DNA from: Myxacorys almedinensis A | GTDB taxonomy: Bacteria > Cyanobacteriota > Cyanobacteriia > Leptolyngbyales > Leptolyngbyaceae | DNA: 64,000 bases | NCBI RefSeq assembly: GCF_010091945.1 | Contig: NZ_WVIE01000003.1 | Span: 186,001 to 250,000, forward strand | Reading direction: 5' to 3' | Shown: positions 5,815-48,729 of the stretch, piece after piece | How positions within the stretch are numbered: the stretch's first letter is position 1 | Layout: every line of letters starts with the position of its first letter | Program-made: the position numbers and the translations under genes | Notes under the pieces: generated by a model | Databases searched by the model: none | What the model was told of the DNA's origin: nothing | The model's input: only the letters and a program-made list of their open reading frames with translations

Positions 5815-5890
5815 CCGTTTCCTGCGGAGTTGCGCTCTGCACTCATCGCGCCCACAGCTAAAAAGAACACTTAATCTGGAGAATTGGGTC

Positions 5891-18833: not shown

Positions 18834-19069
18834 TGGGCTTCGTTGATGGCTAAATGCTCAGCCAGAGAGGTTTGAATGATTGTTTGAGGCGTTACCCCTA
18901 AACGGCTGGCTTCTTGATCGATTCGCTCAAGCATCCAGACTGGTAGATCGATGCTGATAGTCTTTTGCTCAGACTGATAGCGTTTAGCTTTAGATAGGTC
19001 AAGTGCTTGGGTAATGTTTTCCCCATCGTCAAATTTTCGATCGAATTCTTCAGCTTTCATATAGGGCAA
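18830..19069 (-). CDS. brnA: BrnA-type antitoxin (ribbon-helix-helix)
   Basis: In this 79-residue protein the C-terminal half has the CopG/BrnA ribbon-helix-helix pattern: TISIDLPVWMLERIDQEASR followed by a second helix. The N-terminal acidic part would contact the toxin. It overlaps brnT by 20 nt upstream and hsdR by 4 nt downstream. In the family, BrnA neutralises BrnT and represses the operon. Confidence 0.8.
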   Translation of the reverse strand: MPYMKAEEFDRKFDDGENITQALDLSKAKRYQSEQKTISIDLPVWMLERIDQEASRLGVTPQTIIQTSLAEHLAINEAQ

Positions 19070-19313
19070 CCTCTTCTATGCGCGATCGACGGACGGAGAT
19101 GATCCGAATGTTTTGACCTCGGTAGGTGATGACCGCTGACCAATGCTTGTCCTCTATTTTACCCACGATCAAAAACCTTGTCTCGTCTTGGGTTCTGGCA
19201 GGGATTTCTAGCAGGTTGGGGGTGTTCCATAGCTTTTGTGCTTCTATGAAGTCGATCCCATGTTTGGCGAGGTTGGATTGACTTTTGTTTTCGTCATATT
19301 CAAAAACGGGCAT
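19050..19313 (-). CDS. brnT: BrnT-type toxin
   Basis: This 87-residue BrnT (RelE-like fold ribonuclease) has the family layout: FEYDENKSQSNLAKHGIDF at the start, a central DETRFLIVGKI strand, and IRIISVRRSRIEE near the end, with the conserved Arg pair. It would cleave RNA when free of BrnA. The order toxin then antitoxin is usual for brnTA. Its position between hsdS and hsdR is unusual. Confidence 0.82.
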   Translation of the reverse strand: MPVFEYDENKSQSNLAKHGIDFIEAQKLWNTPNLLEIPARTQDETRFLIVGKIEDKHWSAVITYRGQNIRIISVRRSRIEEVALYES

Positions 19314-19352
19314 GATCTAAAGCTTGCGATCGATGTTTATATCCACACCTTC

Positions 19353-19577
19353 TCACATTTCTGAAAGCGGAATGATTTGCCCTGCTAAAGCTTCGCGTAA
19401 GCCTTGATGAATTCCTTCGATCGCAATTTCGGTCGGTGTTTCGTCGGGGTCGGCTTCGTCATCTTCGGAAATTAAGATGATGAGGCGAACGCGCTGCGGT
19501 TTGATTACGCCAAGCGATCGATCGAGCGTCAGTTGCCCATTTTTATCAATGGTTGCTGTGGTTTCAATTGCTTTCAT
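19353..19577 (-). CDS. Small antitoxin-like protein, no toxin partner visible
   Basis: This 74-residue protein, MKAIETTATIDKNGQLTLDR then an acidic EDDEADPDETPTE stretch and a short C-terminal helix, resembles the AbrB/VapB-like antitoxins common in cyanobacteria. No toxin gene directly follows; the next gene is brnT, which already has brnA. It could be an orphan left after loss of a toxin, or an additional regulator. Identity rests on general resemblance only. Confidence 0.5.
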   Translation of the reverse strand: MKAIETTATIDKNGQLTLDRSLGVIKPQRVRLIILISEDDEADPDETPTEIAIEGIHQGLREALAGQIIPLSEM

Positions 19578-19624
19578 ACAGAGTGATGATGTGGTTAAAC
19601 ATTGAGCTAATTCAGTCTGATTCT

Positions 19625-20938
19625 TTAGGCGGCGATCGCTTCCTCCGCTTTTTTTGTCGTCTGGTTAGCGGTATCGGCGGTAAGTTCGCCTGTGAAGGCT
19701 TTTTGCAGGATGGATTGTTTGAGTTCGTTGAGAGCAGCGAGTTTTTGGCGGTAGATGGCTTCGAGGCGTTGGGTTACGATAGCTAGTTCATCAATACTTG
19801 CGACAATGTTATTTTGTTCTATAAAGGAAGGAAAACTTACCGTAATTAGTGAAAGCCCTTGCTGATTAAGGCTACTAATATTAATTCCGCCTCCACTCTC
19901 TGTTAGCTGTTTTCGCAACTCTCTAGATTTTAGAAAGTGAACGATAAACGGAAGATGAATATCCTCTCTTTCGATGCGAAGTCTAATTGTAAATCCAGAG
20001 TGCGAGGTTCTTTCGGAAAGATCACCCACCAATACACAACGTCCAATTAATTCTCTGTTTCCATTCGATCTGACAGTTAATATGTCTCCTTTCCGCAAAG
20101 CATCTATCTCTTTTAACTCTCCATCTAGTGTCACAGACTCTAGTTGATCTTCCTGAATCCAGAAATTGTTCTGAAAATCTTTAACGCCAACAATTCTGAT
20201 TGATTCACCTTTACTATTTTTCGTAAAATTGAGACCGTTTCTAAATGCCGCTATATCCCCTAACTTTTTCTCTATCCACCCATCACCTTTCTGGGTGAAA
20301 ATCTCATTCAGATGGCTCTCAAAAAGTTCGCGGGCGTTGGTGAGGTTCTTTTTGGTGTTGGCGATCGCTCTATCAATCCCCTCAAATGCCTGGTCTACGA
20401 TCGACACAATCTGCTTCTGTTCAGGAAGTAGAGGAATGGGAATTGTGATATTTAGTATTCTCTTTGGAGCTGTATGGCGAACCATTGTCCCTGTAGCTGT
20501 CTCTTTTACTTTGTCTGCAACCGTTTTTGTTTGAAGGAAGTAATAAAGATATTTTGGATTTATTGATTCATCTTGAAAAAGAATTCGTCCAATTCGTTGG
20601 TTGTGCAAGATGTTGGGATGGTTAATGAATGCAGGTTTCCCTAAAATCTTCATTTTTGAAGAAAGATCGGTCATAACTACTGTTAAATCACCTACATCGA
20701 AAAAGTAACCGTCTGGCGGAACTTTACCGACTAATCGCTTTGTGTTTTGTGCAGTGAAGTATAATTCACCATTCTCCGAATAGTTCCCTGGTGTGAGAAC
20801 AATTGGCTTTTCTAAGTCATCGCTTCTATTAAAGTCACATCCTTTGAATGCGTATCCGTGCGAGATACCAATCAAGTCAGCTAATTTCTGCTCAACCCAT
20901 CCCTCTGGCAACTGCTTATCATTAATCTTTAACGACAT
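19625..20938 (-). CDS. hsdS: Type I restriction enzyme specificity subunit
   Basis: This 437-residue protein has two target-recognition halves. Each begins with a W-x-x-K-x-L-x-D signature (GWVEQKLADLIG and GWIEKKLGDIAAF) and ends with a conserved helix (PLLPEQKQIVSIVDQAFE; the second is SFIEQNNIVASIDELA). The two helices form the spacer that sets the gap in the bipartite target. Its start overlaps the end of a duplicated hsdM tail by 10 nt, the arrangement expected if hsdM once lay directly upstream. Target sequence cannot be predicted. Confidence 0.9.
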   Translation of the reverse strand: MSLKINDKQLPEGWVEQKLADLIGISHGYAFKGCDFNRSDDLEKPIVLTPGNYSENGELYFTAQNTKRLVGKVPPDGYFFDVGDLTVVMTDLSSKMKILGKPAFINHPNILHNQRIGRILFQDESINPKYLYYFLQTKTVADKVKETATGTMVRHTAPKRILNITIPIPLLPEQKQIVSIVDQAFEGIDRAIANTKKNLTNARELFESHLNEIFTQKGDGWIEKKLGDIAAFRNGLNFTKNSKGESIRIVGVKDFQNNFWIQEDQLESVTLDGELKEIDALRKGDILTVRSNGNRELIGRCVLVGDLSERTSHSGFTIRLRIEREDIHLPFIVHFLKSRELRKQLTESGGGINISSLNQQGLSLITVSFPSFIEQNNIVASIDELAIVTQRLEAIYRQKLAALNELKQSILQKAFTGELTADTANQTTKKAEEAIAA

Positions 20939-21003
20939 ACCATTCCCCCAATTCCAGCCAAAATTTCTGCGCTCTCCGCATCCGATGCCGCGATCAAAGC
21001 CGC
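20929..21003 (-). pseudogene. Duplicated hsdM 3' end between hicA and hsdS
   Basis: Read on the minus strand, this piece encodes ..DAESAEILAGIGGMVCR and a stop, closely matching the last residues of HsdM (DAESAEILAGIDGLLCGR). At DNA level 20949-20995 aligns with 21541-21587 with about eight mismatches. Its TAA overlaps the hsdS start by 10 nt. It begins just after the hicA stop and has no start of its own. It looks like the remnant of an hsdM-hsdS junction separated from hsdM by the hicBA cassette. Confidence 0.75.
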
Positions 21004-21010
21004 TATTTTT

Positions 21011-21250
21011 CTACACCTGCTCATAAGCGGCAATAAAATCATCTCGTGAAATACCAGATTGAGTGCAGATACTTCTGAGCGTAGAGCCTTTGATGCGCTT
21101 GTGATTTGGCAACGTTAAAGGAGTGCTAGTTCCGTCAGAGTTTTGCCGAATCATAGAGATATGCTCCTTCTCCCTAACAATCTCAAACCCAAAACCCTCA
21201 AGCACTCTAATCACCTTTGCTTTGGTCGCATCAGCCGGAAGCTTTGCCAT
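21011..21250 (-). CDS. hicA: HicA-type toxin
   Basis: This 79-residue mRNA interferase has a double-stranded RNA-binding-like fold. Family features are the N-terminal helix VIRVLEGFGFEIVREKEHISM with the active His, then LTLPNHKRIKGSTLRSI and a C-terminal ISRDDFIAAY helix. The ATG overlaps the hicB stop by one base, so the pair is coupled. Confidence 0.85.
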   Translation of the reverse strand: MAKLPADATKAKVIRVLEGFGFEIVREKEHISMIRQNSDGTSTPLTLPNHKRIKGSTLRSICTQSGISRDDFIAAYEQV

Positions 21251-21468
21251 TAAACGTTTGCCTCTGCCACAAAGGCTTCGAGGATTGAGGAATCAGATTC
21301 AAGTACCGACTGCCCAAAGGTTTCGACATGAAACAAAATCGCCGATCGAACATCATTTAAGGCTTCTTCATAAGTGTCACCTTCACCCACTACCACCCCT
21401 TGAATTCCGAGCGGATAAGCAACATAGCCGTCAGAGTGCTTCTCTACAATGATTTTGATGTTTTTCAT
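21250..21468 (-). CDS. hicB: HicB-type antitoxin
   Basis: This 72-residue protein has the partial RNase H-like HicB fold: IKIIVEKHSDGYVAYPLGIQGVV, then GDTYEEALNDVRSAI. I chose the start at 21468 because GGAGAG lies about eight bases upstream; the frame is open to 21543, but that extension is not family-like. It lacks the C-terminal DNA-binding domain of longer HicB proteins, so repression of the operon may be weak. It is transcribed between hsdM and hsdS. Confidence 0.83.
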   Translation of the reverse strand: MKNIKIIVEKHSDGYVAYPLGIQGVVVGEGDTYEEALNDVRSAILFHVETFGQSVLESDSSILEAFVAEANV

Positions 21469-21517
21469 ATTCAACTCTCCCAAATTATTTCTAAAACTCA
21501 AAGCTAGCCGCCACAGC

Positions 21518-22978
21518 TTATCGACCGCATAGCAGTCCGTCAATTCCAGCTAAAATTTCTGCACTCTCTGCGTCCAAGGTCGCGATCGCATCCATAATTT
21601 CTTGTGGCTCTCGAAGTGCGACTTCTTCTCCTTTGCTCGGATTCTTCACCGACAGATCAAAGGAGTGTTGCTCCACATCAGCAATATCCACCAACCAGGA
21701 TGCTTCCGTCTCAGCAAAAGTCGTCTGTAGCTCGACAAACTTCCGTAGGTCATCATCATTCAGAGCATTCGTCTTACCCATACTCCGCCCTGGGTCAAGT
21801 TGGTAATACCAGATTTTTTGGGTTCGCGTCCCTTTCTCAAAGAACAGCACCACCGTTTTCACCCCAGCCCCAATAAACGTGCCGCTAGGACAATCTAGGA
21901 TCGTATGCAGGTTGCAGATCGTGAGCAATTCCTGGCGCAAAGCACGAGAGGCGTTGTCTGAATTGGATAGAAAAGTATTTTTAATCACCACTCCGGCTCT
22001 GCCGCCCACTTTCAGAATTTTGATGAAATGCTGCAAAAACAAAAATGCCGTCTCTCCAGTTTTGATTGGAAAGTTTTGCTGCACCTCCTTGCGTTCCTTG
22101 CCCCCAAACGGCGGATTTGCCAAAATCAGATCAAATCGATTTTTGTCTTGAATATCGCTCAGGTTTTCCGTCAGCGTATTGGTATGAATGATGTTTGGCG
22201 CATCGATGCCATGCAAAATCATGTTCATGATCGCAATCACATACGCCAGACTCTTCTTCTCCTTACCCGTAAACGTTTCGGTCTGGAGTTGCTCAAGCTG
22301 CTTTGTCGTCAGCTTTCCTTGGCGCAGATAATCATAGCTCTCACACAAAAAACCCGCCGATCCGCAAGCTCCGTCATAAATGCGATCGCCGATCTTCGGC
22401 TTCAACACCTGCATGATCGCTCGAATCAGCGGACGCGGCGTGTAATACTCCCCACCATTGCGCCCCGCATTGCCCATGTTCTTAATTTTGGCTTCGTAGA
22501 GATGCGATAGCTCATGCTTCTCCTGCTGAGACCGAAACCGCAACTCGTCCACATATTCCAGCGCATCCCGCAGGCTATAGCCACTCTGGAACTTGTTCTT
22601 AATCTCGCTGAAAATCTCGCCGATTTTATATTCGATCGTGTTCGGGCTGCTGGCTCGCTGCTTAAATCCTTGAAGATAGGGAAATAGCTCGCGGTTGACA
22701 TAATCGATCAGGTCATCACCAATCAACGCATTATCATGATCCAGCTTGCCCTCTGCCGTCTTCGGTGCCGCCCAAACCGACCAGCGATACTTCTCATCCA
22801 AAATGAATGTATGGGGCTTACCGACCAACTCAGCTTCCAGTGCCTTCTCCTGCTCTAAATCATCCAGATATTTCAGAAACAGCAGCCAAGACGTTTGCTC
22901 GGTATAGTCTAGTTCCGTAGTACAGCCTGCCTCTTTCCAGAGAACGTCATCAATGTTTTTGAAAGTTTGCTCAAACAT
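21518..22978 (-). CDS. hsdM: Type I restriction-modification methyltransferase subunit
   Basis: This 486-residue N6-adenine methyltransferase has an N-terminal helical HsdM_N region (residues 1-150) and a GGEYYTPRPL motif at 175-184. SAM motif I is YDGACGSAGFL at 201-211, where the usual Pro is Gly. The catalytic NPPF is at 288-291. With HsdS it methylates the recognition site and protects it from HsdR. It is first in the minus-strand island, followed by hicBA, a second copy of its own tail, and hsdS. The first base of its tail duplicate lies about 590 nt further on. Confidence 0.93.
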   Translation of the reverse strand: MFEQTFKNIDDVLWKEAGCTTELDYTEQTSWLLFLKYLDDLEQEKALEAELVGKPHTFILDEKYRWSVWAAPKTAEGKLDHDNALIGDDLIDYVNRELFPYLQGFKQRASSPNTIEYKIGEIFSEIKNKFQSGYSLRDALEYVDELRFRSQQEKHELSHLYEAKIKNMGNAGRNGGEYYTPRPLIRAIMQVLKPKIGDRIYDGACGSAGFLCESYDYLRQGKLTTKQLEQLQTETFTGKEKKSLAYVIAIMNMILHGIDAPNIIHTNTLTENLSDIQDKNRFDLILANPPFGGKERKEVQQNFPIKTGETAFLFLQHFIKILKVGGRAGVVIKNTFLSNSDNASRALRQELLTICNLHTILDCPSGTFIGAGVKTVVLFFEKGTRTQKIWYYQLDPGRSMGKTNALNDDDLRKFVELQTTFAETEASWLVDIADVEQHSFDLSVKNPSKGEEVALREPQEIMDAIATLDAESAEILAGIDGLLCGR

Positions 22979-37672: not shown

Positions 37673-40600
37673 CTACCGAGGCTTCCTGAGTGACCAGAGG
37701 CGGATCGTCGTGTTATAGCCTACGCCTTTGCTGTCCATCACTGCCTGCCACCAACTCTGCGTCTTTTCGGTCAGTCGTTGATCGAGGCTGGTTGTAACGT
37801 CATCGTCAAGCCCACCCGAAAACTGGTCGAGCCAGTAAATCTTAGCATCAGCAGTGGTGTGATCTACCAGCAAAAGCACACTGTGGTATCCGTCCAGAAT
37901 CGATAGGGCAAACGCAAACCAGCATCCCTCCGTCTGAGATGCTGCCAGCACTGCATCTTGGACGCTGACCTTCAGCCGTTCAGGTTTAAGCGTTCCGGCT
38001 GTACGATCGCGGCGGTCGTAGAAATTGATCTCCGTCGGGGCAACGGTAAAACCCGCTTTGCGGAGTTGCTCCATCGCCTTTTCAATGGTCTGGGTCGTCA
38101 GGTTCGCCATCTGGACGCGGCGGCGGCTTGCCCCCCGTGCACGATTTTGCTTTAGACGCAGGGGCAAGAGTTGCCCAAGGGCGACGTTCAGCATGACAAT
38201 ACAGCTACAGCGATCGACACTGTTGGCACTGGCAGCCACTGCATTATCTTCATAGACCTGTCGGACTCTGGCAATATCTGCTGCCGAGAAACATTTTGTC
38301 CACCGCCGCCGCCGCGCTTGCTCTCCGGAGAGCAACTCCTCCTCAGCCATAATTCTCTCTGTCAAAGCGATGAGCAGAGGATCGTCTAGCTCGCGTGCTT
38401 CAGTGCGATCGCGGCTCTCTTCCGCTTCCAAAGACTCGATGATCTGTTCTTCCGCATCGGGCATCGTTTCATCGTCGAATTGCTCAACTGCTTCAGACTC
38501 CACCGCCAACGTCTCATCCTCTTCCCTAGGAGGTGGGGTTGGGGTGGTACCGTTGCCAAGGGCATTGAGCATCTGCACCACGCGCCGCTTAAACAGGCGT
38601 CCATAGCGCTCCGAACCACTGACCCGCCGCCCAACAAAGTAAATCGAGCCTCGTGCCGTCCCATTTAAGATGGTTGCATCCAGCGGCAGGGCGAGATAAT
38701 TACCGCTATGGCGGCTATGCAGACGAACCCCAAGCGCCGGAATAATCAGATCGGTTTCTTGAAAGAGCCGATCCCAATCGGCATTCGTCGTCACGGTGGC
38801 AATGCGCTCCGAGTCTTGCCCTGCCCAGCGTCGCCGATAGTCTGCAATCACGGGATGGGCAATAGGATGATTCTGTATGTACTCGATCAGATGCTTGTAA
38901 GCAGCGCGAAACGTGGTTTGAATGATGCCCCGCCCCCGGAATTTGAAAAAGTCGGCTTCTAGAATAATGCCGCTCGTTGCCGGATCGGTAGAGGTGGGAA
39001 AATCGTTTTGTGGGTATTGGTCGCCACCCCAGCGTGCATCGGTCGTATTGCGGATGCGATCGCTGAGCGGCAAGTGCCCATGAGCCGCCAGAAAGTCGCG
39101 ATCGTTGAACAGGGCAAGGGCAGTCCGATTGCTGCTACTGGTGTTGTACGATCGTTTGACATCGGAAATTCGATCAAAGGCGTAGGCAATGCCAGGATGC
39201 CCAGTGCGCCCAACCCGCTCACTGAGCGGCAGTAATGAACCGCCGGTTTCGTTAATGATGATGCTCATCAAGCTTAAGAACTGAAACAAATTGATGGAGG
39301 GCACACCAAACATGTCAGGGATGCGATCCCAAAGGCGGGTAAATCGCCCTTTCACCGCTGCGGCGTCGCCCCGTGCCCCGATGCGCTTGCCGCGCCAATC
39401 TCCCTGCCCACCGATCCGCGCATTAAACCAGTCCACAAAGTCAGCCCTGGTGGTGCGCTGAAAGAAATCATTAATCTCCCTGCCGTTGCTGAAGGTGATG
39501 GGTGACACAAGGGCAACAAACGCAGGCGATACATCGGTTGCTGGAGTTGCCGGAGGAGAAACAGGGGTTACAGGCGTTGGGGTGACGGGGGTTGGGGTGG
39601 GGCTTCCGCCACCCGGTGATCCAGGAGGCGAGGGTGCTCCTGCCGCCACCAGAGCCGCTTCGGTCTGAGTGCCAACGATGCCATCTACCGTTAGCCCACG
39701 GCGGCGCTGAAAGGTGCGAACGGCAGCGCGGGTGCGCGAACCGCTGATGCCATCTACCGCTAATCCAGCATTATTGATCTGATTTAGTGATGCTTGCACC
39801 CATCGAATGTAATCGGGGCTGCGGCGATTGATCGTTGTACTTGCTGGAGTGGTTGGTGTTGGGATTGGTGTTGGGATTGGTGTTGGGATTGCACCCGGAG
39901 TTCCAGCCCCCGCGCCGACCAGCCCATGTTCTTGCAGGTGCAGCAGGTAGCGGGTTGGGTTGAGCAGGTTCGATGGGCGGGGAGAACCTTTCAACCACTG
40001 AGCATTCCTGCGCGTTCCTGGAGTGTAGACTTCAAAGTGAATCATGGTGCTGCCACCGGGATTACGCCCAACATAGGCGATAATCTGCCCTGCCCGCACC
40101 CGCGATCCACGACTTAACCCAGTGCGCCGCAGCGAGTCAGGAGCAACTTCGCCATAATTCACAACCACGTTAGAGTGGGCAACAAACAGAGCATTTGTGG
40201 TCTTGTTCTCGCCACAGCAAAAGGGGTAGAAGCTGATAATCTCACCGTCTTCGATCGCGACTACGGGGTCGCCGTAGTTGGCAAACAGATCAATCCCGGC
40301 GTGATAGCGCGTTCTGTTAGAACGATCTGCTAGCCAGCGTCGTCCCTGATGCCCAATATTGCTGCCATCATCGGCGGTATAGCTGACTGTGCGCCCCTGT
40401 CTGTGGTTGGTGATAATAGGCCAGTAGCTACCCGCTGGGGGTAGGGGCGCAAAGGGGGCTGGGCTGCCTACCGGCAAAGCCATTGGCGGTTTGGTTGGGG
40501 TTAGAGGGGGGGGATTGGTCTCGAAGATGTCGATCATCGATTCGCTTTCGTTGTCATCTTCAAGTCCTAGCCATTCATCAATGTCTTCGGGCAGAATCTG

Positions 40601-43024
40601 CTCTTCGGGCAGAACATGCTCACCAATCTGTTCACCAATCTGTTCACCAATCTGTTCACCAATCATCTGGTCAACCTGTTCACCTATTGGGGCACGGCGC
40701 ACCCGCAGAATTAGCTGATTTGATGGCACCACACGGCGCGCATTCAGGATGCGGCGGGCATAGCGTTGAGCGGCGCGATGGGGGCAGGCTCCGGCTTCGA
40801 CGACAATGCCGTAATAGCCAGGGCGCGCTGCTTCTAGCGTCCACCCTTGGGCGATCGCTTGTTCAGGCTGGAGCAGATTCTCAGAGCCGATAAACGCCAC
40901 ATGGATATATCCTTCGCCAGGAATGTGCCGCAGCAACACGTCGCCAGGGCGCAGGCTGCCCGTGAGGACGCTACCAGGACCTGCGATCGCATCCAACCCA
41001 CCGGATAACGGCGGCTGAGCAACCGCCGTCGGACGGGCAAAGCTCATAAACAAATCGCGCAGCGAACCGACACTCGGCAGACCAGAACGTTGAAGGACTT
41101 GGTGCAAATGGGTGTGAACGGGCAATTGAGACGCGATCGCACTCTCCACTGTCTCCAACCATTCAGAGTCTAATGTCGCTTCGCCCACGGCGGTTTCATG
41201 CAGGTTCGTTTGCATATCAGTTCTCCCTGGAATATAAGATGGGTTAGAAGGTGCGCTCGGCACAGGTGCAGCAAGGGATTGCTTCAAAAAGTGGCGGGTA
41301 GCATCAAGCGCGGCGTCTATGGTTAATCTGCCGCTGCCGATGCGGTAGATTTCATTTTCCTCGGCATCTACCGGGGTCGTGCTACTCAACAGCAGATTGC
41401 GCGTGTCGTTAATGGCTAGGGTCTGATTGCATCGGTTAGCCAGATCAAACATCAAAGCCACCGTCCCCGCCACATGGGGAGCCGCCATACTCGTGCCAGA
41501 TTTTCGCACTAAAAACCGTTGGGATACGTTGGCATCCCGCGACCTAGAACGAGCCGCCTGAACCGCTACCCCAGGTGCAACCAACTCGGGTTTGGGGCGC
41601 TGATCTCGCGTTGGTCCAGAACTGCTGAATCGCCCCATTCGTCGTGCCGGATCGTGGGCATTATAGGCACCCACGGCAATGGTACGCAGACCATTACATA
41701 TCGTGCCCGTGGTATTTAATGGCACTGCGTATGAGCTTGAAAACTGGGACTGGCAATCGCGACAAGTGGCATCTCGCTCGATCCAAATGTTAAAGCGCCC
41801 ATCCACAACATCAACCCCGGTTAAACTGACTTCCCACCGTCCTGCGGGTGCGCCCTGCTCGATGTAAATGTGGCAGTTGTTGTCTAGGTTATTGGGTTCT
41901 CGCGCTCGGTGATAAACTTTGCACACCACCTGATGGTTCACCTGGATGGTCGCCTGATCGTCTAACCCAGTTCGCTTAGACATCAGCCCGTTAGGCGTCA
42001 GCACCGCAATCTCTAAAACATCCCGCCCAGAGTACCAAATCTCCATTTCATTGGGGGTCACATCTGCTTCGCTGACCACAAATGGAATGGTTAGCACCTG
42101 CCCTGGCAAGACGCGCCCTGCACTGTGCGCCATGCGATCGTAATAGTTGCCCGTGCTCTGGATGATGGCGCAACCGGGCTTAGCGCTCACAATGGCATCG
42201 AAGCCCTGTTCCACTAAGGTCGAACCGTCATGGGGTCCCATTTGCCGCCCCATGCTGAAATTCATCACCACGGGGCGCTCTTGAGCCGTCGCCAAGATGA
42301 AGTCAGCGGCTTCTAAGACTGCCACAGAATCCCCTAAATTGACTTGGGCAGGAAACGCCCGATGGTATAGATGGACAAAAACCAGATCAGCCTCTGGCGC
42401 AACGCCCACCGGGTCGCCAACGCTGCCATTGCCCGCCGCAATATCAAGGACGTGAGTGCCGTGGGTGCCGCTTCCTGTAGGGTCAGACTGAGAGAAAAAG
42501 TAGCCCAATGTTGCCAGTGGATCTACTGAGGCTAGGGCATGGTTAATCTCTTGGGCGCTGTGAATCACCCCATAGCCATAACGATTGGGGCGGGCAGCCT
42601 GGTAGGGGGCGCTTTGATCCCATAATGCCAGGAGCCGCGTTGTCCCGTCGTGATGGCGAAAGTTAGGGTGAGTAAAGTCGCAGCCCCAATCTACGACCCC
42701 CACCACCACGTTTTTGCCTGTGATGCCTACATTTCTGCGGGGGCGGCGGTTGTCACTTTCAAGTTCAGGCAAGGATTGGCTTTCGTCGTCGATCGGCACC
42801 TCGTCGCCTGGGGTCAACAGGTCGGGTGCTTTCATACTGGCGACGGTCTCATGATTGCGGATCTCTACGATCGCACCGCGTTGCAGCCTGCCCGTAACGA
42901 TGTTGCCAAACCGCGCGACAACATGGACGTTAGGCGGGATCATATCGGGTCGATGGAGCCGGATAATAGTGCCGACTTCTTCGTTGGCATCGCCCTCGGC
43001 TAGCTCCCAGAGAGCAGGTTCCAT
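37673..43024 (-). CDS. Giant multi-domain hydrolase: subtilisin, NlpC-like, M23-like, PG-binding, GH19-like, Cys peptidase-like
   Basis: 1783 residues without a clear signal peptide. The subtilisin S8 domain (about 100-575) has triad Asp112 (VVDWGC), His188 (GTHGTH) and Ser512 (SGTSMAAPH). Residues 680-775 look like a permuted NlpC/P60-type fold (LRPGDVLLRH, His708, Cys747). An M23-like domain spans 870-1030, with His908, Asp912 and His996 kept but the two catalytic His positions apparently replaced. A peptidoglycan-binding domain lies at 1068-1128. A GH19/lysozyme-like domain follows at 1175-1490 (Glu1259 in NETGG, GRGIIQT). The C-terminal domain (1575-1783) has CSC at 1606-1608, His1714 and Asp1733, and resembles papain-like enzymes. 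Acidic and Pro-rich linkers join the parts. It is the last gene of a five-gene operon. Confidence 0.85.
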   Translation of the reverse strand: MEPALWELAEGDANEEVGTIIRLHRPDMIPPNVHVVARFGNIVTGRLQRGAIVEIRNHETVASMKAPDLLTPGDEVPIDDESQSLPELESDNRRPRRNVGITGKNVVVGVVDWGCDFTHPNFRHHDGTTRLLALWDQSAPYQAARPNRYGYGVIHSAQEINHALASVDPLATLGYFFSQSDPTGSGTHGTHVLDIAAGNGSVGDPVGVAPEADLVFVHLYHRAFPAQVNLGDSVAVLEAADFILATAQERPVVMNFSMGRQMGPHDGSTLVEQGFDAIVSAKPGCAIIQSTGNYYDRMAHSAGRVLPGQVLTIPFVVSEADVTPNEMEIWYSGRDVLEIAVLTPNGLMSKRTGLDDQATIQVNHQVVCKVYHRAREPNNLDNNCHIYIEQGAPAGRWEVSLTGVDVVDGRFNIWIERDATCRDCQSQFSSSYAVPLNTTGTICNGLRTIAVGAYNAHDPARRMGRFSSSGPTRDQRPKPELVAPGVAVQAARSRSRDANVSQRFLVRKSGTSMAAPHVAGTVALMFDLANRCNQTLAINDTRNLLLSSTTPVDAEENEIYRIGSGRLTIDAALDATRHFLKQSLAAPVPSAPSNPSYIPGRTDMQTNLHETAVGEATLDSEWLETVESAIASQLPVHTHLHQVLQRSGLPSVGSLRDLFMSFARPTAVAQPPLSGGLDAIAGPGSVLTGSLRPGDVLLRHIPGEGYIHVAFIGSENLLQPEQAIAQGWTLEAARPGYYGIVVEAGACPHRAAQRYARRILNARRVVPSNQLILRVRRAPIGEQVDQMIGEQIGEQIGEQIGEHVLPEEQILPEDIDEWLGLEDDNESESMIDIFETNPPPLTPTKPPMALPVGSPAPFAPLPPAGSYWPIITNHRQGRTVSYTADDGSNIGHQGRRWLADRSNRTRYHAGIDLFANYGDPVVAIEDGEIISFYPFCCGENKTTNALFVAHSNVVVNYGEVAPDSLRRTGLSRGSRVRAGQIIAYVGRNPGGSTMIHFEVYTPGTRRNAQWLKGSPRPSNLLNPTRYLLHLQEHGLVGAGAGTPGAIPTPIPTPIPTPTTPASTTINRRSPDYIRWVQASLNQINNAGLAVDGISGSRTRAAVRTFQRRRGLTVDGIVGTQTEAALVAAGAPSPPGSPGGGSPTPTPVTPTPVTPVSPPATPATDVSPAFVALVSPITFSNGREINDFFQRTTRADFVDWFNARIGGQGDWRGKRIGARGDAAAVKGRFTRLWDRIPDMFGVPSINLFQFLSLMSIIINETGGSLLPLSERVGRTGHPGIAYAFDRISDVKRSYNTSSSNRTALALFNDRDFLAAHGHLPLSDRIRNTTDARWGGDQYPQNDFPTSTDPATSGIILEADFFKFRGRGIIQTTFRAAYKHLIEYIQNHPIAHPVIADYRRRWAGQDSERIATVTTNADWDRLFQETDLIIPALGVRLHSRHSGNYLALPLDATILNGTARGSIYFVGRRVSGSERYGRLFKRRVVQMLNALGNGTTPTPPPREEDETLAVESEAVEQFDDETMPDAEEQIIESLEAEESRDRTEARELDDPLLIALTERIMAEEELLSGEQARRRRWTKCFSAADIARVRQVYEDNAVAASANSVDRCSCIVMLNVALGQLLPLRLKQNRARGASRRRVQMANLTTQTIEKAMEQLRKAGFTVAPTEINFYDRRDRTAGTLKPERLKVSVQDAVLAASQTEGCWFAFALSILDGYHSVLLLVDHTTADAKIYWLDQFSGGLDDDVTTSLDQRLTEKTQSWWQAVMDSKGVGYNTTIRLWSLRKPR
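39845..39893 (-). repeat. 12-nt tandem repeats coding for a Pro-Thr linker
   Basis: The unit GTTGGGATTGGT is repeated about three times on the plus strand, giving IPTP repeats in the giant protein just before its peptidoglycan-binding domain. Units of 12 nt let the linker grow or shrink without a frameshift. Confidence 0.7.
40618..40665 (-). repeat. Four 12-nt tandem repeats in giant hydrolase gene
   Basis: Four units of TGTTCACCAATC (the first with one change) encode repeated IGEQ in the linker between the NlpC-like and M23-like domains. Too short and regular to be a CRISPR; it is an in-frame coding repeat. Confidence 0.85.
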
Positions 43025-43108
43025 GGCTACTTTTCCCCAACAGTAGGATTGAGGCTAATCAATATTGCAGGTGCGTTTAATCGGCTATTGAGGCAGACGC
43101 CACCGGCA

Positions 43109-43645
43109 TCAGTTTTTCATAAACCGTCGAGACAACAGCCTGAATAGATGATGTCGGAGCCACAACAGGTATCTGGCTCCCCTGCGCCTACGCCTAGGTG
43201 GAATGCCGCTTCCAGAGGAATTTATAGAGTCTTGAATGTCGCGCAGGGTCGCCAAAATCTTGTCAGAGGTGTTTTGTGAACCGACTAGCTCACTGACCCC
43301 AGCTTCAAGCTTCACGATCCGATCGTTGAGCCTTTCAACCCTGTCCCCGATCTGGTCAATCTGGGCTGTCGCACGGATCGCGGCGGCGGCGGTCTCCTGA
43401 GCCTGTTGGACTGCCTGCTGAACCTTGTCTATAAGCTGAGCTTGGGGATCAGGTTGCTCGGCTGATAACTGCATTGCATCAAAACGTGCTAGCTCAGCCA
43501 CCAACAGGATGCTGGCTGGCGACCCACCCAGGAGCGTCAGCACAATACCCCATTGGGTCGCTTGTGAAGACTTCAGTCCGACCTGTTCGGCAAGCAGTCT
43601 GCCAACGATAAACGCTCTAATTCGCTGATTCGCTGTCGTTGGCAT
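43109..43645 (-). CDS. Coiled-coil protein with hydrophobic N-terminal segment
   Basis: This 178-residue protein has a hydrophobic segment at about 30-52 (QWGIVLTLLGGSPASILLVA), then a long heptad-like region from 75 to 140 (IDKVQQAVQQAQETAAAAI, VERLNDRIVKLEAGV). A very basic tail (PPRRRRRGARYLLWLRHH) follows. I recognise no family. It could be a membrane-tethered structural or docking protein. It starts 14 bases after the preceding gene and lies 84 bases before the giant hydrolase gene. Confidence 0.65.
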   Translation of the reverse strand: MPTTANQRIRAFIVGRLLAEQVGLKSSQATQWGIVLTLLGGSPASILLVAELARFDAMQLSAEQPDPQAQLIDKVQQAVQQAQETAAAAIRATAQIDQIGDRVERLNDRIVKLEAGVSELVGSQNTSDKILATLRDIQDSINSSGSGIPPRRRRRGARYLLWLRHHLFRLLSRRFMKN

Positions 43646-43659
43646 TGCCTATTGCTGGG

Positions 43660-44370
43660 TTAAAGCCCGCCGTTAGACATCATCATCATCACCAGAATTA
43701 GCATTGTCGGATCGAGTCCGCCCGAAGAGGATTGCCCAGGGGTGCCCGTTTGTTGTTGCTGTTGCTGCATTAACAGTAAGAGGACAATGGGCATGTTGTC
43801 ACCCATGCCGCCGCCCGCCCGTCCTGGCTTGCCAATGTTGCGCCCCATCGACATGAACAGTACGAGGGGCAGAATATCGAGTTTTGAACTGACGCCAGAA
43901 ACCGTGCTGACGACGCCCGGACCTACGGGGGCAGTGGTGGGTTCGAGCCGTGGGCTAGATTCCCCTTGTGAAGTAAGGGTCAAATTTTGGCGTTGGATAT
44001 CGAGCGATCGCGGCAGCAACATCGAAATGAGCGAGATCTGGCGCAAACTCGCTAGGTCGGCATTCACCTTTTTAAGCCGAGTATCAACATCGCCAAGGTC
44101 TTCTTTAGCAGTGCTGACTTCCCGCGCTAACTGCTTATCACGGGCACGGGCGGCTTCAGCTTCGCGCTTGAGTTGAGCCGCCGTCCGCCCTCCTCCTTGG
44201 CTCGGTGCTGGTTGACGCCGCCACGCCGCACCAGACGTGCGTACACCCTGACGGCGGGGACGACGACGGCGGCGACGACGGCGGGATTCATCAAACTCTA
44301 GGTCTTCAAAATCAGATTCAAAATCGCTCTCATCGTACTCATCATAGGTTTCAAGCATTTCATCCAACAT
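43660..44370 (-). CDS. Acidic/Arg-rich, Gln-rich protein of unknown function
   Basis: In this 236-residue protein, residues 1-29 are acidic and Tyr/Phe-rich, with EYDES at 11-15 and EFDES at 25-29. A run of about ten Arg follows, then a coiled segment (70-120). The C-terminus has hydrophobic runs around a poly-Gln stretch (IVLLLLMQQQQQQ; LILVMMMMSNGGL). Such composition suggests a structural or assembly role rather than an enzyme. It overlaps the upstream zinc-knuckle gene by 11 nt, so translation is probably coupled. No family recognised. Confidence 0.6.
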   Translation of the reverse strand: MLDEMLETYDEYDESDFESDFEDLEFDESRRRRRRRRPRRQGVRTSGAAWRRQPAPSQGGGRTAAQLKREAEAARARDKQLAREVSTAKEDLGDVDTRLKKVNADLASLRQISLISMLLPRSLDIQRQNLTLTSQGESSPRLEPTTAPVGPGVVSTVSGVSSKLDILPLVLFMSMGRNIGKPGRAGGGMGDNMPIVLLLLMQQQQQQTGTPGQSSSGGLDPTMLILVMMMMSNGGL

Positions 44371-44896
44371 GTTGGGGTTCCTCCCTTGTTTTCGGTTGAG
44401 TAACAGTGGCTTGCCGCTCTAGGTGCTGTCGTTTGAGTTCCCGCGCTGCTCGCACAGCAGGAAGCACCCATTCTTCAAACAACGCCCAATCCAGCGCCAT
44501 AGTCCCAGGCTTACCCTTGCCATGGCACTCTGGGCAGTGCGAATCTTGCCCCCAGCACAGATAGCAAGCACCGAGCGCGGCAGCTAGTTCGTCGTTGTGA
44601 GTTTCCAGTTCCTCGATCTGCTGTTGCAGGAGTTCAATCTGTTGTTGCATCGCTGTGAACCGCGATCGCAGGCGTTTAATCGCCCGACGGCGGCGCGACG
44701 GTGCCTCGTCGTCATCGTCTAGATCGATCTCGTGATCCTCGTCTTTCTGAGCGTTGCTGGTGGAAAGAGCTTGAGAAAGCACCATGCGCGCCATGGGGTC
44801 AAGATCACTGTTATCGTTGAGCATCTCTTCAAGGTTTGCCTGCCCCCCCTGCCCAGACAACAACATATTCATCAGGATCTGGTTCATATCACTCAT
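44360..44896 (-). CDS. Coiled-coil protein with C-x2-C-x6-C-x2-C zinc knuckle
   Basis: This 178-residue protein has a Met/Asp-rich N-terminus and an acidic stretch (EIDLDDDDEAPS), followed by Arg-rich helix and coiled coil (MQQQIELLQQQIEELETHND). Next is CYLCWGQDSHCPECHGKGKP, which resembles half a DnaJ zinc centre. The C-terminal helix is basic. The knuckle likely binds zinc, but the partner is unknown. It is second in the operon, 35 bases after the glycine-zipper gene. Confidence 0.62.
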   Translation of the reverse strand: MSDMNQILMNMLLSGQGGQANLEEMLNDNSDLDPMARMVLSQALSTSNAQKDEDHEIDLDDDDEAPSRRRRAIKRLRSRFTAMQQQIELLQQQIEELETHNDELAAALGACYLCWGQDSHCPECHGKGKPGTMALDWALFEEWVLPAVRAARELKRQHLERQATVTQPKTREEPQHVG

Positions 44897-44931
44897 GCAG
44901 CCCTCCTCGGCGGTGACGGTAGCGATCGCTT

Positions 44932-45861
44932 CTAAGCTTCGGCATACTCGAAGTCGTCTAGCATTTCGTAGAACGACTCATCAAACTCAACAACTTCGTC
45001 GTAGTCGTTGTAGCGTTCGTCATCTTCATCATCAAAGGTTTCGTCATCAAAGGTTTCGTCGTCATAAAAGGCTTCGTCATCTTCAATGAAGAGAGATTCG
45101 TTAGCCTGGTAAAGGGTTTCCAGAATATAGCTAGACTGCTCATCGGGATTGGCAGGATCAAAGACCGATTCACTCGATAGGGTATCGATCCTTTCGCCTA
45201 CCATCTCGTATTCCTCAGCGACGCGCGTGGCTAATGTGCCGAGGGCAGCCAAGATAGATTGGATGGGCAGGGATTGGTTGCCCACCCGGACGCTTCGAGA
45301 TCCGGCATTACCGGCTAAGGCATTGAGCACCGCCTGCTGGGTTTGGGGCTGGGCTAGCAACGCCGCCAACTGACCCCTAGCTCCGTGTTGCCCACGGCTC
45401 AGTGCGCCCATGGCAGTCTGCCCGACCTGCCCAATTAATCCAGCAGTTCCGCCGCGACGCCCCAGTGCGCCCAAGGCTTGCCCCCCGACCTGCCGAGCAA
45501 TATTGGTCGCTGAGGTTCCCGGTTGGGGGCGATAGGTGACCCCTCCAAGCGTGCCCCCTGCGATCGCGCCTCCAAGCGCGCCAAACGGTCCTAGGGCGGC
45601 TCCTGTGGTTGCCCCGGTGACGGCACCAGAAACAATTCCCGGTGCACGACGACCGATCTCACGACCAACCTTACCGAGGGAACGCCCAATGTTGCGAAAG
45701 AAGCTTTCGGCTTCCTCTGGAGACAGGTCGGGGAAGGTTTCAATGAGGAGAGATTCAACCTCTTCGGTAGGGAGGTAACGGTACTGGGGATCTAAAAACT
45801 GGCGGGTTGCGTAGTAGGGATCAGTTGATTCGTCATACTCAACCAGGGGATCATAAGACAT
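44932..45861 (-). CDS. Glycine-zipper protein with acidic motif tails
   Basis: In this 309-residue protein the N-terminus carries EYDES (8-12). A basic helix and then a glycine-zipper hairpin (GAVTGATTGAALGPFGALGG, about 78-108) would insert in or pack against a membrane. The central third is Gly/Ala/Gln-rich. The last 60 residues are strongly acidic (EDDEAFYDDETFDDETFDDE) and end with EFDES (292-296) near the C-terminus. I recognise no described family. First gene of the operon, so it may be the scaffold or pore component. Confidence 0.62.
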   Translation of the reverse strand: MSYDPLVEYDESTDPYYATRQFLDPQYRYLPTEEVESLLIETFPDLSPEEAESFFRNIGRSLGKVGREIGRRAPGIVSGAVTGATTGAALGPFGALGGAIAGGTLGGVTYRPQPGTSATNIARQVGGQALGALGRRGGTAGLIGQVGQTAMGALSRGQHGARGQLAALLAQPQTQQAVLNALAGNAGSRSVRVGNQSLPIQSILAALGTLATRVAEEYEMVGERIDTLSSESVFDPANPDEQSSYILETLYQANESLFIEDDEAFYDDETFDDETFDDEDDERYNDYDEVVEFDESFYEMLDDFEYAEA

Positions 45862-46516: not shown

Positions 46517-48055
46517 ATGGCAGCTACCTCCTCCAAATCTAGCCCTTTAACCAAACCCCCACAGAGGTTGAAACGTTTCTTTGGAGAAGCCCGCACTCAA
46601 ATCTTGCTCTGGTATCTCCTGCTGTTTTTGGGGTTTGTCGCGATCGCGCTGCCGTTAATGCGCTATTTCATCTTTGCCAAAGTCAATGAGCGAGTCCGTA
46701 AAGATTTATTTGAGGAAGTCAAAGATTTTCAGGCATTAATGGCAGGTCAGTTGACCCCCAGCGATCGCGTCACCATCAGGCGAATGCGAGAAGACGGCAG
46801 ACCAGACTTTACCCTCCGCCCCCAAACTCCTAGAGAAGTTGAAGGCGTGTTTGAGGTCTTTTTTGCACGACGAGTGCCAGAAGACGACACGTTTTTGATT
46901 GGAATTGTCGATCAAAAATATTATAAATCTAGCCCCAGAGCGCTGCCCGATAAACTGCAACCCGGCAAGCCTCTGATGCTGCGATGGCAATCTATGACGC
47001 AACTGCCGCAAACAGAGCCAGAAATTTCTGACTCCACGATCCAGGGCGTTCTTTATATTGCAGAACCAATTGAAGTCGATGGTAAGACGGTCGGTATGCT
47101 AGTTGTTGCTCACACGGCTGAAGGCGAACGGAAAGAGGCACTAGAAGCGCTGATCGTGGTGATGGAAGTGATTGGGCTGGCGCTGGTGCTGGTGCTGCTG
47201 GCAGCGTGGTGGGTGTCGGGGCGAGTGTTGGCTCCCCTGCGCGGATTGGTGAAAACGGCACACCAGATCAGCGAATCAGATCTGACGGCACGCATTCCGG
47301 TGGTGGGAGACGGTGAGATTGCTGACCTCGCCAAAACGTTTAATGAAATGATGGATCGAGTCGAGGAGTCTTTTGCCACCCAGCGCATGTTTATCAACGA
47401 TGCAGGGCACGAATTACGCACCCCGATCACGATTATTCAGGGAAACCTGGAAGTGATGGGAGACGACCCCGCCGATCGGCAAGAAACCTTGGTGCTGGTG
47501 ATGGATGAACTCGATCGCATGGCACGAATGGTAGACGATTTGATGATGTTAGCAAAATCAGAACGACCCGATTTTTTGCGACCTGAAATTGTGGACATAG
47601 CGGCATTTACAGAAGAGTTGTTGGCCAAGGTAAAAGCGCTGGGCGATCGCACCTGGCACCTCGATGCAGCGGCACTTGGCTCGGTGATCTTGGATCGTCA
47701 GCGCATCACTGAAGCGGTGATCAACCTGGCGCAAAACGCGGTTCAGCATACGGCGGTGGGTCAGATCATTGCGATCGGGTCGGCGATGGATAGAACCCAT
47801 TTGCGGCTGTGGGTGCGCGATCGCGGAGAAGGCATTGCTCCTAACGATCAAGTTCGCATTTTTGAGCGGTTTGCTCGTGCGGCTAAAACTCGTCGCAAAT
47901 CAGATGGGGCTGGGTTAGGGCTGTCGATTGTCCGGGCGATCGCAGAAGCCCATCATGGCACCATTGCGCTGCACTCCCACGTTGCCCGAGGATCAACCTT
48001 CACGCTAATTTTGCCGATTCGCCCTTTGCCCAGCACCCTAGCTAGGAGACCGTGA
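46517..48055 (+). CDS. Sensor histidine kinase (HAMP, two membrane helices)
   Basis: This 512-residue kinase has a membrane helix at 28-53, a periplasmic sensor of about 155 residues, a second helix at 212-236, HAMP (ALVLVLLAAWWVSGRVLAPL onward) and the H-box FINDAGHELRTPIT with His298. An HATPase domain follows with N-box NLAQNAVQH, G1 DRGEGI, and G2 GAGLGLSIV. It should phosphorylate the response regulator whose gene begins 3 bases after its stop. The stimulus cannot be told from the sequence. Confidence 0.92.
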   Translation: MAATSSKSSPLTKPPQRLKRFFGEARTQILLWYLLLFLGFVAIALPLMRYFIFAKVNERVRKDLFEEVKDFQALMAGQLTPSDRVTIRRMREDGRPDFTLRPQTPREVEGVFEVFFARRVPEDDTFLIGIVDQKYYKSSPRALPDKLQPGKPLMLRWQSMTQLPQTEPEISDSTIQGVLYIAEPIEVDGKTVGMLVVAHTAEGERKEALEALIVVMEVIGLALVLVLLAAWWVSGRVLAPLRGLVKTAHQISESDLTARIPVVGDGEIADLAKTFNEMMDRVEESFATQRMFINDAGHELRTPITIIQGNLEVMGDDPADRQETLVLVMDELDRMARMVDDLMMLAKSERPDFLRPEIVDIAAFTEELLAKVKALGDRTWHLDAAALGSVILDRQRITEAVINLAQNAVQHTAVGQIIAIGSAMDRTHLRLWVRDRGEGIAPNDQVRIFERFARAAKTRRKSDGAGLGLSIVRAIAEAHHGTIALHSHVARGSTFTLILPIRPLPSTLARRP

Positions 48056-48057
48056 CC

Positions 48058-48729
48058 ATGCCCCATATTTTGATCGCTGAAGACGAACCCCGCATCTCTG
48101 GATTTATTGAAAAAGGGTTGAAAGCCAATGGTTTCACCGCCGCGATCGCAGAGGATGCAGATACCGCCCTAGACCTGGCGCTAGGGGGCAATTTTGACCT
48201 GATGATCTTAGATTTAGGGCTGCCTGGAAAAGATGGGCTAGAGGTGCTAGAACACTTGCGCGGGCAAGGAGAGCGCCTCCCCATCATTATTTTGACTGCC
48301 CGCGACGATATTCAATACAAAGTGGCTGGGTTTGAGGGAGGAGCCGATGATTACCTCACCAAGCCATTTCGGTTTGAGGAACTGTTGGTGCGAATTAAGG
48401 CTCGGTTGCGCGATCATCTCAGTGCCTCTGTGCAAGAAGAAACAGTGTTGCAAGCGGGAGATATTCAGCTAGATTTGCGAACCCGGCAGGCAAAGGTTGG
48501 CGATGTGTGGGTTGAGTTGCCCTCTCGCGAGTTTATTTTGGCAGAAATGTTTTTTCGGTATCCGGGGCGGGTGTTGAGCCGAGAGCAGTTGCTCGATCGG
48601 GTGTGGGGCTATGACTACGACCCCGGCTCTAATATTGTGGATGTGTATGTAGGCTATTTGCGAAAAAAACTGGGCAGCAGCCTGATCGAAACTGTGCGCG
48701 GCATGGGCTACCGGCTGCGAAATGGGTAG
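48058..48729 (+). CDS. OmpR/PhoB-family response regulator
   Basis: This 223-residue protein has a receiver domain with Asp52 (LDLGLPGKDG), acidic pocket EDE at 8-10, Thr (IILTARDD) and Lys (LTKPFRFEEL). The C-terminal winged helix has REFILAEMFFRYPGRVLSREQLLD and ends YRLRNG. I prefer the ATG at 48058 because AGGAG lies nine bases upstream; a GTG at 48052 also overlaps the kinase stop. PhoB-type direct repeats just downstream of the gene suggest a target upstream of the glycosyltransferase genes. Confidence 0.93.
   Translation: MPHILIAEDEPRISGFIEKGLKANGFTAAIAEDADTALDLALGGNFDLMILDLGLPGKDGLEVLEHLRGQGERLPIIILTARDDIQYKVAGFEGGADDYLTKPFRFEELLVRIKARLRDHLSASVQEETVLQAGDIQLDLRTRQAKVGDVWVELPSREFILAEMFFRYPGRVLSREQLLDRVWGYDYDPGSNIVDVYVGYLRKKLGSSLIETVRGMGYRLRNG

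Follow-up and report, generated by a model that had tools for sequence, protein, structure and literature searches.

The 64,000-nucleotide (nt) stretch analysed here, hereafter the window, covers positions 186,001 to 250,000 of contig NZ_WVIE01000003.1 of the cyanobacterium Myxacorys almedinensis A and harbors an operon of five minus-strand genes, four of which encode small proteins (g5, g4, g3, and g2), while the last encodes a giant multi-domain hydrolase (Table 1). A first-pass annotation, made from the sequence alone, had described these genes together with the gaps between them, and the open reading frames (ORFs) were indeed found at the places given, with distances, from the giant gene upward, of 84 nt, 14 nt, an 11-nt overlap, and 35 nt. 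Judged from their sequences, g2 to g5 are real genes, since homologues occur in many phyla and nonsynonymous divergence from the nearest relative (dN) is well below synonymous divergence (dS) for the three genes that could be compared, namely g5 (0.17 vs. 2.4), g3 (0.19 vs. 1.7), and g2 (0.42 vs. 1.5), dS of g4 not being computable.

Table 1. Genes of the operon and regions of the giant protein, with positions in the window
Feature	Position	Strand	Length or residues	Remarks
g5	44932..45861	-	309 aa	first gene of operon
g4	44360..44896	-	178 aa
g3	43660..44370	-	236 aa
g2	43109..43645	-	178 aa
Giant multi-domain hydrolase	37673..43024	-	1783 aa	last gene
Csp-like subtilase	41285..43024	-	residues 1-580	D112, H188, N293, S512
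LD domain	40700..40996	-	residues 677-775	between protease and payload; recurrent, unnamed
Peptidase_M23	40010..40306	-	residues 907-1005	Pfam, 6.4e-11
PG_binding_1	39650..39808	-	residues 1073-1125	Pfam, 1.9e-14
GH19/lysozyme-like	38558..39532	-	residues 1165-1489	motif level; no Pfam hit
Cysteine-peptidase-like	37676..38359	-	residues 1556-1783	candidate C1608, H1714, D1733; no Pfam peptidase hit

Recurrence and conserved order of the five genes

A set of 67 loci was compiled, comprising 63 from a subtilase scan of GTDB species contigs (query: an alignment of eight sequences), the window, and three plasmid loci from Cupriavidus, Gemmatirosa, and Streptomyces, which were kept as operon-like among six fetched from 67 matching plasmid records. 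Profiles of the small genes, built from five or six sequences and then iterated, matched 49 ORFs for g4, 51 for g5 (one being a second copy in the Cupriavidus locus), 48 for g3, and 14 for g2. At least one of g3, g4, and g5 was found on the protease strand in 52 of the 67 loci, and in all 52 the recognised genes were arranged as g5-g4-g3-(g2)-protease, all with the same orientation. The set proposed by the first-pass annotation therefore recurs as a unit, with the small genes conserved beside the protease gene, and no tie to phage tails (sought with g4 and g5) or to known secretion machinery was found. Thirteen loci held all five genes, one held all five with a broken protease (L039), 30 had no recognised g2, four no g3, and two no g4, and two were truncated at a contig end; counted by profile, g3 was missing in four, g4 in three, and g5 in two of the 52 loci. 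Three of the four loci without a recognised g3 carried an unmatched acidic/Arg-rich ORF in its place. No small genes were found in the other 15 loci, three of which had little upstream contig (L045, 383 nt; L059, 845 nt; L061, 2157 nt). The remaining ones encode subtilases that are more distantly related, and in some of these, too, the contig ends soon upstream. The set includes many Flavobacterium species. Plasmid loci L036 and L037 revealed a subtilase and no small genes, and plasmid locus L023 matched a payload region, with no match to any profile.

Co-occurrence was also evident among 291 genomes of the class, in which the giant matched 17 genomes at 1e-10, five of them strongly (E<=6e-174; next match 5e-98). 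The g3 profile hit exactly these five genomes and the g4 profile the same five plus one weak match (1e-8), giving Fisher p values for co-occurrence with the strong protease of 6e-11 and 4e-10, respectively, for genomes that are not independent. The g4 profile thus reached 6 of 291 genomes, compared to 2 of 386 in a search with the single protein, and the sister genome G001 revealed no g3, g4, or giant at the cut-offs used. With the g5 profile, 31 of the 291 genomes matched at E<=1e-5 and only five below 1e-30; since the weaker matches (1e-5 to 3e-8) fell around the glycine-zipper/Ala-rich stretch (profile positions about 56-199), a g5 match by itself does not identify the operon. The closest genomes, in which g5 was found in one of 58, the window's own, had suggested small genes unique to the window; this was rejected, as g5 is present in the wider loci, and the low count is due to a patchy distribution. 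In plasmid records, g5 gave one match, that of Cupriavidus. Pairwise distances of protease, g5, g4, and g3 were correlated (Spearman 0.35-0.76; no pair was equalled in any of 2000 permutations) in 30 of the 52 loci, namely those with all four families minus 15 left out (further Flavobacterium-type loci, L039, L050, and L062). Such correlated divergence is expected of a unit that is inherited together.

Going by record titles, several of them belonging to metagenome-assembled genomes (MAGs), the operon occurs in eight phyla, namely Cyanobacteriota, Chloroflexota, Planctomycetota (Brocadia), Bacteroidota, Pseudomonadota, Actinomycetota, Gemmatimonadota, and Nitrospinota, the last with g3 only, at a contig start. 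In a tree of 50 subtilases (17 of the 67 loci omitted: 12 further Flavobacterium-type loci, L096-L098, L100, and the broken L039), the window grouped with one cyanobacterium (support 100/100) and then with a Chloroflexota copy (99/94), while the Cupriavidus plasmid copy grouped with four other cyanobacteria (100/96). This interleaving of phyla, together with the plasmid copies in Cupriavidus, Streptomyces, and Gemmatirosa, indicates that the operon spread by horizontal transfer. Operon rows did not form one clade, since four changes of the operon label are required on the tree (mean of 10.1 after shuffling), and L045, L059, and L061, the no-operon loci whose contigs are short upstream, fell among them. 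Since S8 relatives without the operon were also found (L029, L030, L032, L036, L037, L084, and L090-L100), proteases of this family are not limited to the system. Loci L062 and L063 carried an identical operon protease in MAGs binned to different families, so that at least one of the two assignments is doubtful and contamination is likely.

The giant protein: protease, LD domain, and payload

The first-pass annotation had assigned six domains to the giant protein. Pfam recovered three of them, a subtilase, an M23 peptidase, and a peptidoglycan-binding domain, and gave no match for the other three regions, which comprise one unnamed recurrent domain (LD) and two motif-level assignments. The subtilase (Peptidase_S8, E 2.6e-28) appears catalytically intact, as D112, H188, N293, and S512 were invariant in 51 of 51 aligned operon copies, the broken L039 copy being left out; residues were scored by alignment columns, narrower sequence patterns having caught the triad in 39 of the 51. 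Its closest solved structures are Csp germination proteases, chains of which head the PDB list, and NCBIfam CspBA matched at E 7.5e-40, though under the family's own cut-off (136.4 vs. 1250 bits), as was also the case for CspC (97.8 vs. 675). Identity with the type VII secretion mycosins was rejected, the score being far below the cut-off of that model (35.7 vs. 278.75 bits). Six phage records from human fecal samples, unannotated and labelled as phage (MT838392.1 and five more), also revealed Csp-like subtilases with 24-31% identity, which we read as members of the wider subtilase family.

One report on Csp germination proteases describes a distinctive jellyroll insertion, a retained inhibitory prodomain, and the activation of SleC by CspB in Clostridia (PMC3567191), and another the proteolytic activation of a cortex hydrolase by CspB (PMC5241399). 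The operon resembles the Csp/SleC system in its Csp-like subtilase sequence and in tying a protease to peptidoglycan hydrolases. It differs in that the payload is fused via LD and that the operon protease shows no Csp match before profile position ~102. Moreover, the operon hosts are presumably mostly not spore formers, and the Csp system is not known to include the four companion families.

Following the protease, the region previously regarded as NlpC-like appears to be a distinct recurrent domain of about 100 residues, LD, without any conserved cysteine in 22 aligned rows. It was detected in 34 ORFs (about eight matches partial), namely 28 protease proteins and six others, of which the L039 ORF probably stems from a giant gene that is broken. 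LD lies near the N-terminus of a separate protein in Cupriavidus, Brocadia, and a Saprospiraceae MAG. Each of the five cyanobacteria with the operon has a single LD, whereas two other cyanobacteria searched have none. Adjoining the full Cupriavidus operon (L022), a second, shorter g5 (6105-6653, minus strand) is followed by such a separate LD/peptidoglycan-binding-like protein (3682-6111, minus strand).

An AlphaFold2 model of LD (construct 650-790) was mostly beta with a mean predicted local distance difference test (pLDDT) score of 87.5, and Foldseek found nothing for it at E<=0.001 among PDB and viral models. The best match of a second structural comparison was the translocation-signal region of TraI (Z 6.0, root-mean-square deviation 4.3, 85 aligned residues), with CHAP domains at Z about 5, and according to the tool's own warning, values under 8, like these, may reflect a common arrangement. 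Neither comparison therefore named a family for LD. The TraI resemblance, together with the presence of LD on both fused and separate payloads, would suit a dedicated export machine, in which signal-less hydrolases leave through a channel built of g5, g3, and g2, with LD as their export signal. We consider this improbable, as CHAP domains come within one Z unit of a match that is itself below 8, membrane signals are weak, and the constant gene set comprises no ATPase or other energising component.

C-terminal of LD, the regions differ from locus to locus. In 32 C-terminal parts (E<=0.01), among them those of three loci that lack small genes and of both L062 and L063, Pfam detected PG_binding_1 in 11, OmpA in 5, PG_binding_3 in 5, M23 in 4, Phage_lysozyme2 in 3, Amidase_2 in 2, VanY in 2, and seven families once each; some payload matches obtained in single scans were under the curated cut-off. 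Where separate downstream proteins were tested, all five revealed wall domains (muramidase and VanY; VanY; M15_4 and VanY; PG_binding_1; M15_4). That the payload is of an envelope-directed kind, as had been supposed, was thus borne out for the recognised domains. The first-pass picture of a giant hydrolase needs correction in that the constant enzyme is the subtilase, and the wall hydrolases vary by locus and are sometimes encoded by a separate gene.

Two payload labels in the window remain at motif level, resting on motifs and single homologues. Residues 1165-1489 contain F-x-G-R-G-x-x-Q-x-T (1362-1371), which we take to be a GH19-type motif, and share 39.6% identity (E 7e-61) with an unannotated protein from a Nostoc carneum plasmid. 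Over 208 alignment columns, the C-terminus is 37% identical to a protein from another cyanobacterium, and C1608, H1714, and D1733 are among the aligned residues. The cysteine-peptidase-like domain also occurs outside the operon, in a 1536-residue protein of another cyanobacterium (L031:8036-12646).

Small companion proteins and comparison with known systems

All features previously ascribed to the small proteins (glycine-zipper spacing, coiled-coil-like stretches, C-x2-C...C-x2-C, poly-Arg, and poly-Gln) were found in their sequences. Thus, g5 consists of a helical N-terminus, a glycine-zipper stretch with G79, G83, G87, G91, G98, G102, and G106 invariant in six rows, a second helical block, and an acidic tail. 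Its AlphaFold2 model (mean pLDDT 62.7) was confident only for residues about 11-60 and 161-220, too uncertain for a structure search. In g4, a coiled-coil-like stretch is accompanied by a zinc-knuckle-like motif, GAC-x2-C-x-G-x4-C-x2-C-x-G-x-G, that may bind zinc; its cysteines (C111, C114, C121, and C124) were invariant in 30 rows, and 48 of the 49 g4 proteins carry the motif, the one without it (L055) starting at a contig end. The acidic N-terminus of g3 is followed by poly-Arg, a coiled-coil-like stretch, and Met/Leu-rich hydrophobic segments separated by Gly/Asn/Gln-rich linkers. Finally, g2 combines a hydrophobic N-terminal segment with a variable tail, which is coiled-coil-like in the window and a PASTA domain in several relatives (7 of 10 g2 or g2-position proteins tested, several of them picked as PASTA-looking); Pfam did not match PASTA in the window's g2. 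Fifteen Bacteroidota ORFs in g2 position matched the g2 profile with a probability of 46% (reversed control 0.6%), which is no more than suggestive of homology.

None of g2 to g5 reached a curated cut-off in Pfam or NCBIfam, PHROGs gave weak matches only (best E 0.0064, g4), and PDB sequence searches with the g4, g5, and g3 profiles revealed nothing below E 0.01. A hydropathy screen for N-terminal signals, a crude measure compared with a dedicated predictor, flagged none of 53 S8, 49 g4, 48 g3, and 14 g2 ORFs and one of 51 g5 ORFs (L085, its start probably set too far upstream), so that the operon proteins have no evident signal peptides.

With regard to phages, tblastn of g4 and g5 against 50,697 phage records gave no match, and pattern searches of viral contigs, with 27 matches for the protease and 218 for g4, yielded no confirmed copy; a phage tail or lysis module was rejected on these grounds. 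The operon shares with phage lysis cassettes the signal-less wall hydrolases beside small hydrophobic proteins and differs from them in that its constant enzyme is a protease and that g4 and g5 are unmatched in phage records.

A defence or surveillance complex, in which phage infection or a breach of the envelope triggers the protease and kills the cell, would be in line with the patchy distribution, the plasmid copies, the proteolytic core, and a match of the PADLOC 'subtilase' model to the giant (1.6e-21). That match covers the subtilase domain only, and apart from two weak IetS matches on the giant, PADLOC gave weak LmuB matches on g2 (E 0.0026) and g4 (E 0.0087) and none on g3 and g5. A known anti-phage system was rejected for this lack of system-specific support on the companion genes, and as peptidoglycan payloads are unusual among known defence effectors, we think a defence role in general quite unlikely. 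The conflict systems of multicellular bacteria, as described in a 2020 eLife article (PMC7159879), have PASTA/OmpA effector domains and are built on NTPases (vWA-MoxR, iSTAND, and GTPases); PASTA and OmpA domains near the membrane are thus common to both, whereas the constant set of the operon contains no NTPase recognised by Pfam or NCBIfam.

A locus of the contractile injection type begins about 20 kb beyond the operon, outside the window and on the same contig (C33, ~252,350-274,000; L121 and L122). It contains two sheath genes in tandem, recognised by Pfam, and, by eye, baseplate-like and other genes; a further sheath gene lies on contig C15 (L123). A search of the whole genome located three sheath places, none of them in the operon and the nearest about 34 kb away. 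This proximity, and a sheath match over the cut-off in three of the five cyanobacteria that carry the operon and in 7 of 21 operon-bearing genomes traced from the loci, might point to the operon as cargo or accessory of extracellular contractile injection systems, with cargo use in some strains. Such a role seems very unlikely, because no sheath match was obtained in two of the five and 10 of the 21 genomes (one genome common to both sets; assemblies of unequal quality, the completeness of the 21 not being established), the sister genome G001 has a sheath and no g4, and the stretches fetched around two sheath loci (C33 and C15) contained no operon-family match. Given the missing sheath matches, the operon is not an obligate part of contractile systems. 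Like the complex proposed below, these systems are made in the cytoplasm from a signal-less, multi-protein locus; the operon differs in having no sheath gene within or next to it and no obligate co-occurrence with one.

As the first-pass annotation had stated, no described system with this gene set emerged, neither from family libraries nor from open-licence literature searched with narrow word combinations. The enzymes are of known kinds. The system as a whole, like the four families that accompany the protease, seems not to have been described before, as far as can be judged from a search that did not extend to subscription papers and preprints.

A putative envelope-directed complex

We tentatively propose, as a possibility that falls short of an even chance, that the operon encodes a dedicated, regulated complex, assembled in the cytoplasm, whose Csp-like protease and small scaffold proteins carry envelope hydrolases and probably activate them. 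The subtilase would be the enzymatic core, and g2 to g5 would form a scaffold, probably associated with membrane and wall, although membrane association is only a guess, since the hydrophobic segments are short and moderate. The exchangeable C-terminal domains, both peptidoglycan binders and hydrolases, would be the payload, which LD, in the fused form or in separate LD/peptidoglycan-binding proteins, would dock onto the complex. As the proteins seem to lack signal peptides, the complex would be expected to accumulate in the cytoplasm and might be freed by lysis or reach an envelope by another route. There, the protease would cut and thereby free or activate the payload, and the wall, most likely that of another cell, would be opened. 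By analogy to Csp and SleC, the payload would probably be activated proteolytically. In favour of the proposal are the constant gene order, the co-occurrence and correlated divergence of protease and small proteins, the horizontal spread, the envelope-directed payload, whether fused or separate, the presence of LD on both kinds of payload, the PASTA tails of several g2 proteins, the lack of evident signal peptides, and the regulators beside many loci.

Several results weigh against this proposal. The M23 region of the giant reads STMIHFE and thus lacks the first His of HxHFE, which we take to be the usual M23 motif; MIHFE was found in all four M23-like stretches compared (the window giant, residues 992-1001, L038, L048, and L050). 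Ten of 22 payload C-termini scanned singly had no Pfam match, and the Flavobacterium proteases (557 residues) carry no fused payload, the gene after them encoding a PG_binding_1 protein (one tested) with an esterase-like stretch seen by eye. Furthermore, the small proteins have no confident predicted structure, their hydrophobic segments span few residues and in most copies reach only a moderate hydropathy (most 19-residue Kyte-Doolittle maxima below 2), and no candidate for an immunity gene stood out in a clustering of neighbouring genes that was not designed for that.

Self-directed lysis or remodelling, in which a signal leads the protease to activate hydrolases on the producer's own wall and g5, g3, and g2 act like holins, is on the unlikely side in our judgement. 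Dispersal, product release, or altruistic lysis might be its purpose. As in endolysin cassettes, signal peptides are not evident; some small proteins are hydrophobic or have a glycine zipper, regulators adjoin the loci, and the Csp-SleC model is itself a case of self-directed activation. However, the payload differs between relatives, four small proteins exceed the needs of a holin, and strongly hydrophobic segments are few by the Kyte-Doolittle values given above. The variable payload on a fixed core, the horizontal spread, and the regulation fit antagonism somewhat better than self-lysis.

In a stronger form of the proposal, the operon would encode a new kind of particle or envelope machine that is assembled in the cytoplasm, does not contract, and has spread horizontally across at least eight phyla, its exchangeable, LD-attached wall-hydrolase payload being released by the built-in Csp-like protease; this we hold to be unlikely. 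In eight phyla, four families without a recognised relative accompany both a protease whose catalytic residues are intact and wall hydrolases that are exchangeable. Should such a complex exist, it would represent a new mode of bacterial wall attack on others or a new lysis programme, and it would suggest that Csp-type proteolytic control of wall hydrolases extends beyond spore germination. The g4 cysteine motif and LD are clear markers for searching any genome.

The neighbour clustering covered 44 loci (23 of the 67 left out: 12 further Flavobacterium-type, 11 distant or short). A response-regulator-like cluster and, by eye, a histidine-kinase-like cluster were each found in nine loci, mostly from Bacteroidota. 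Ten neighbours chosen for their regulator-like look were tested by Pfam: six of six from a third cluster, present in six loci, were BTAD activators, and the other four comprised two LuxR-type, one AraC-type, and one OmpR-type regulator, the latter from the window. Such adjacent regulators fit an inducible production. In the window, the OmpR-type response regulator and a histidine-kinase-like gene (by eye) lie divergent from the operon (46517-48729, plus strand), and by eye this pair is absent beside the nearest relative, L038. Elsewhere in the window, a type I restriction-modification-like set of HsdR, HsdS, and HsdM (16491-22978, minus strand) was recognised by eye.

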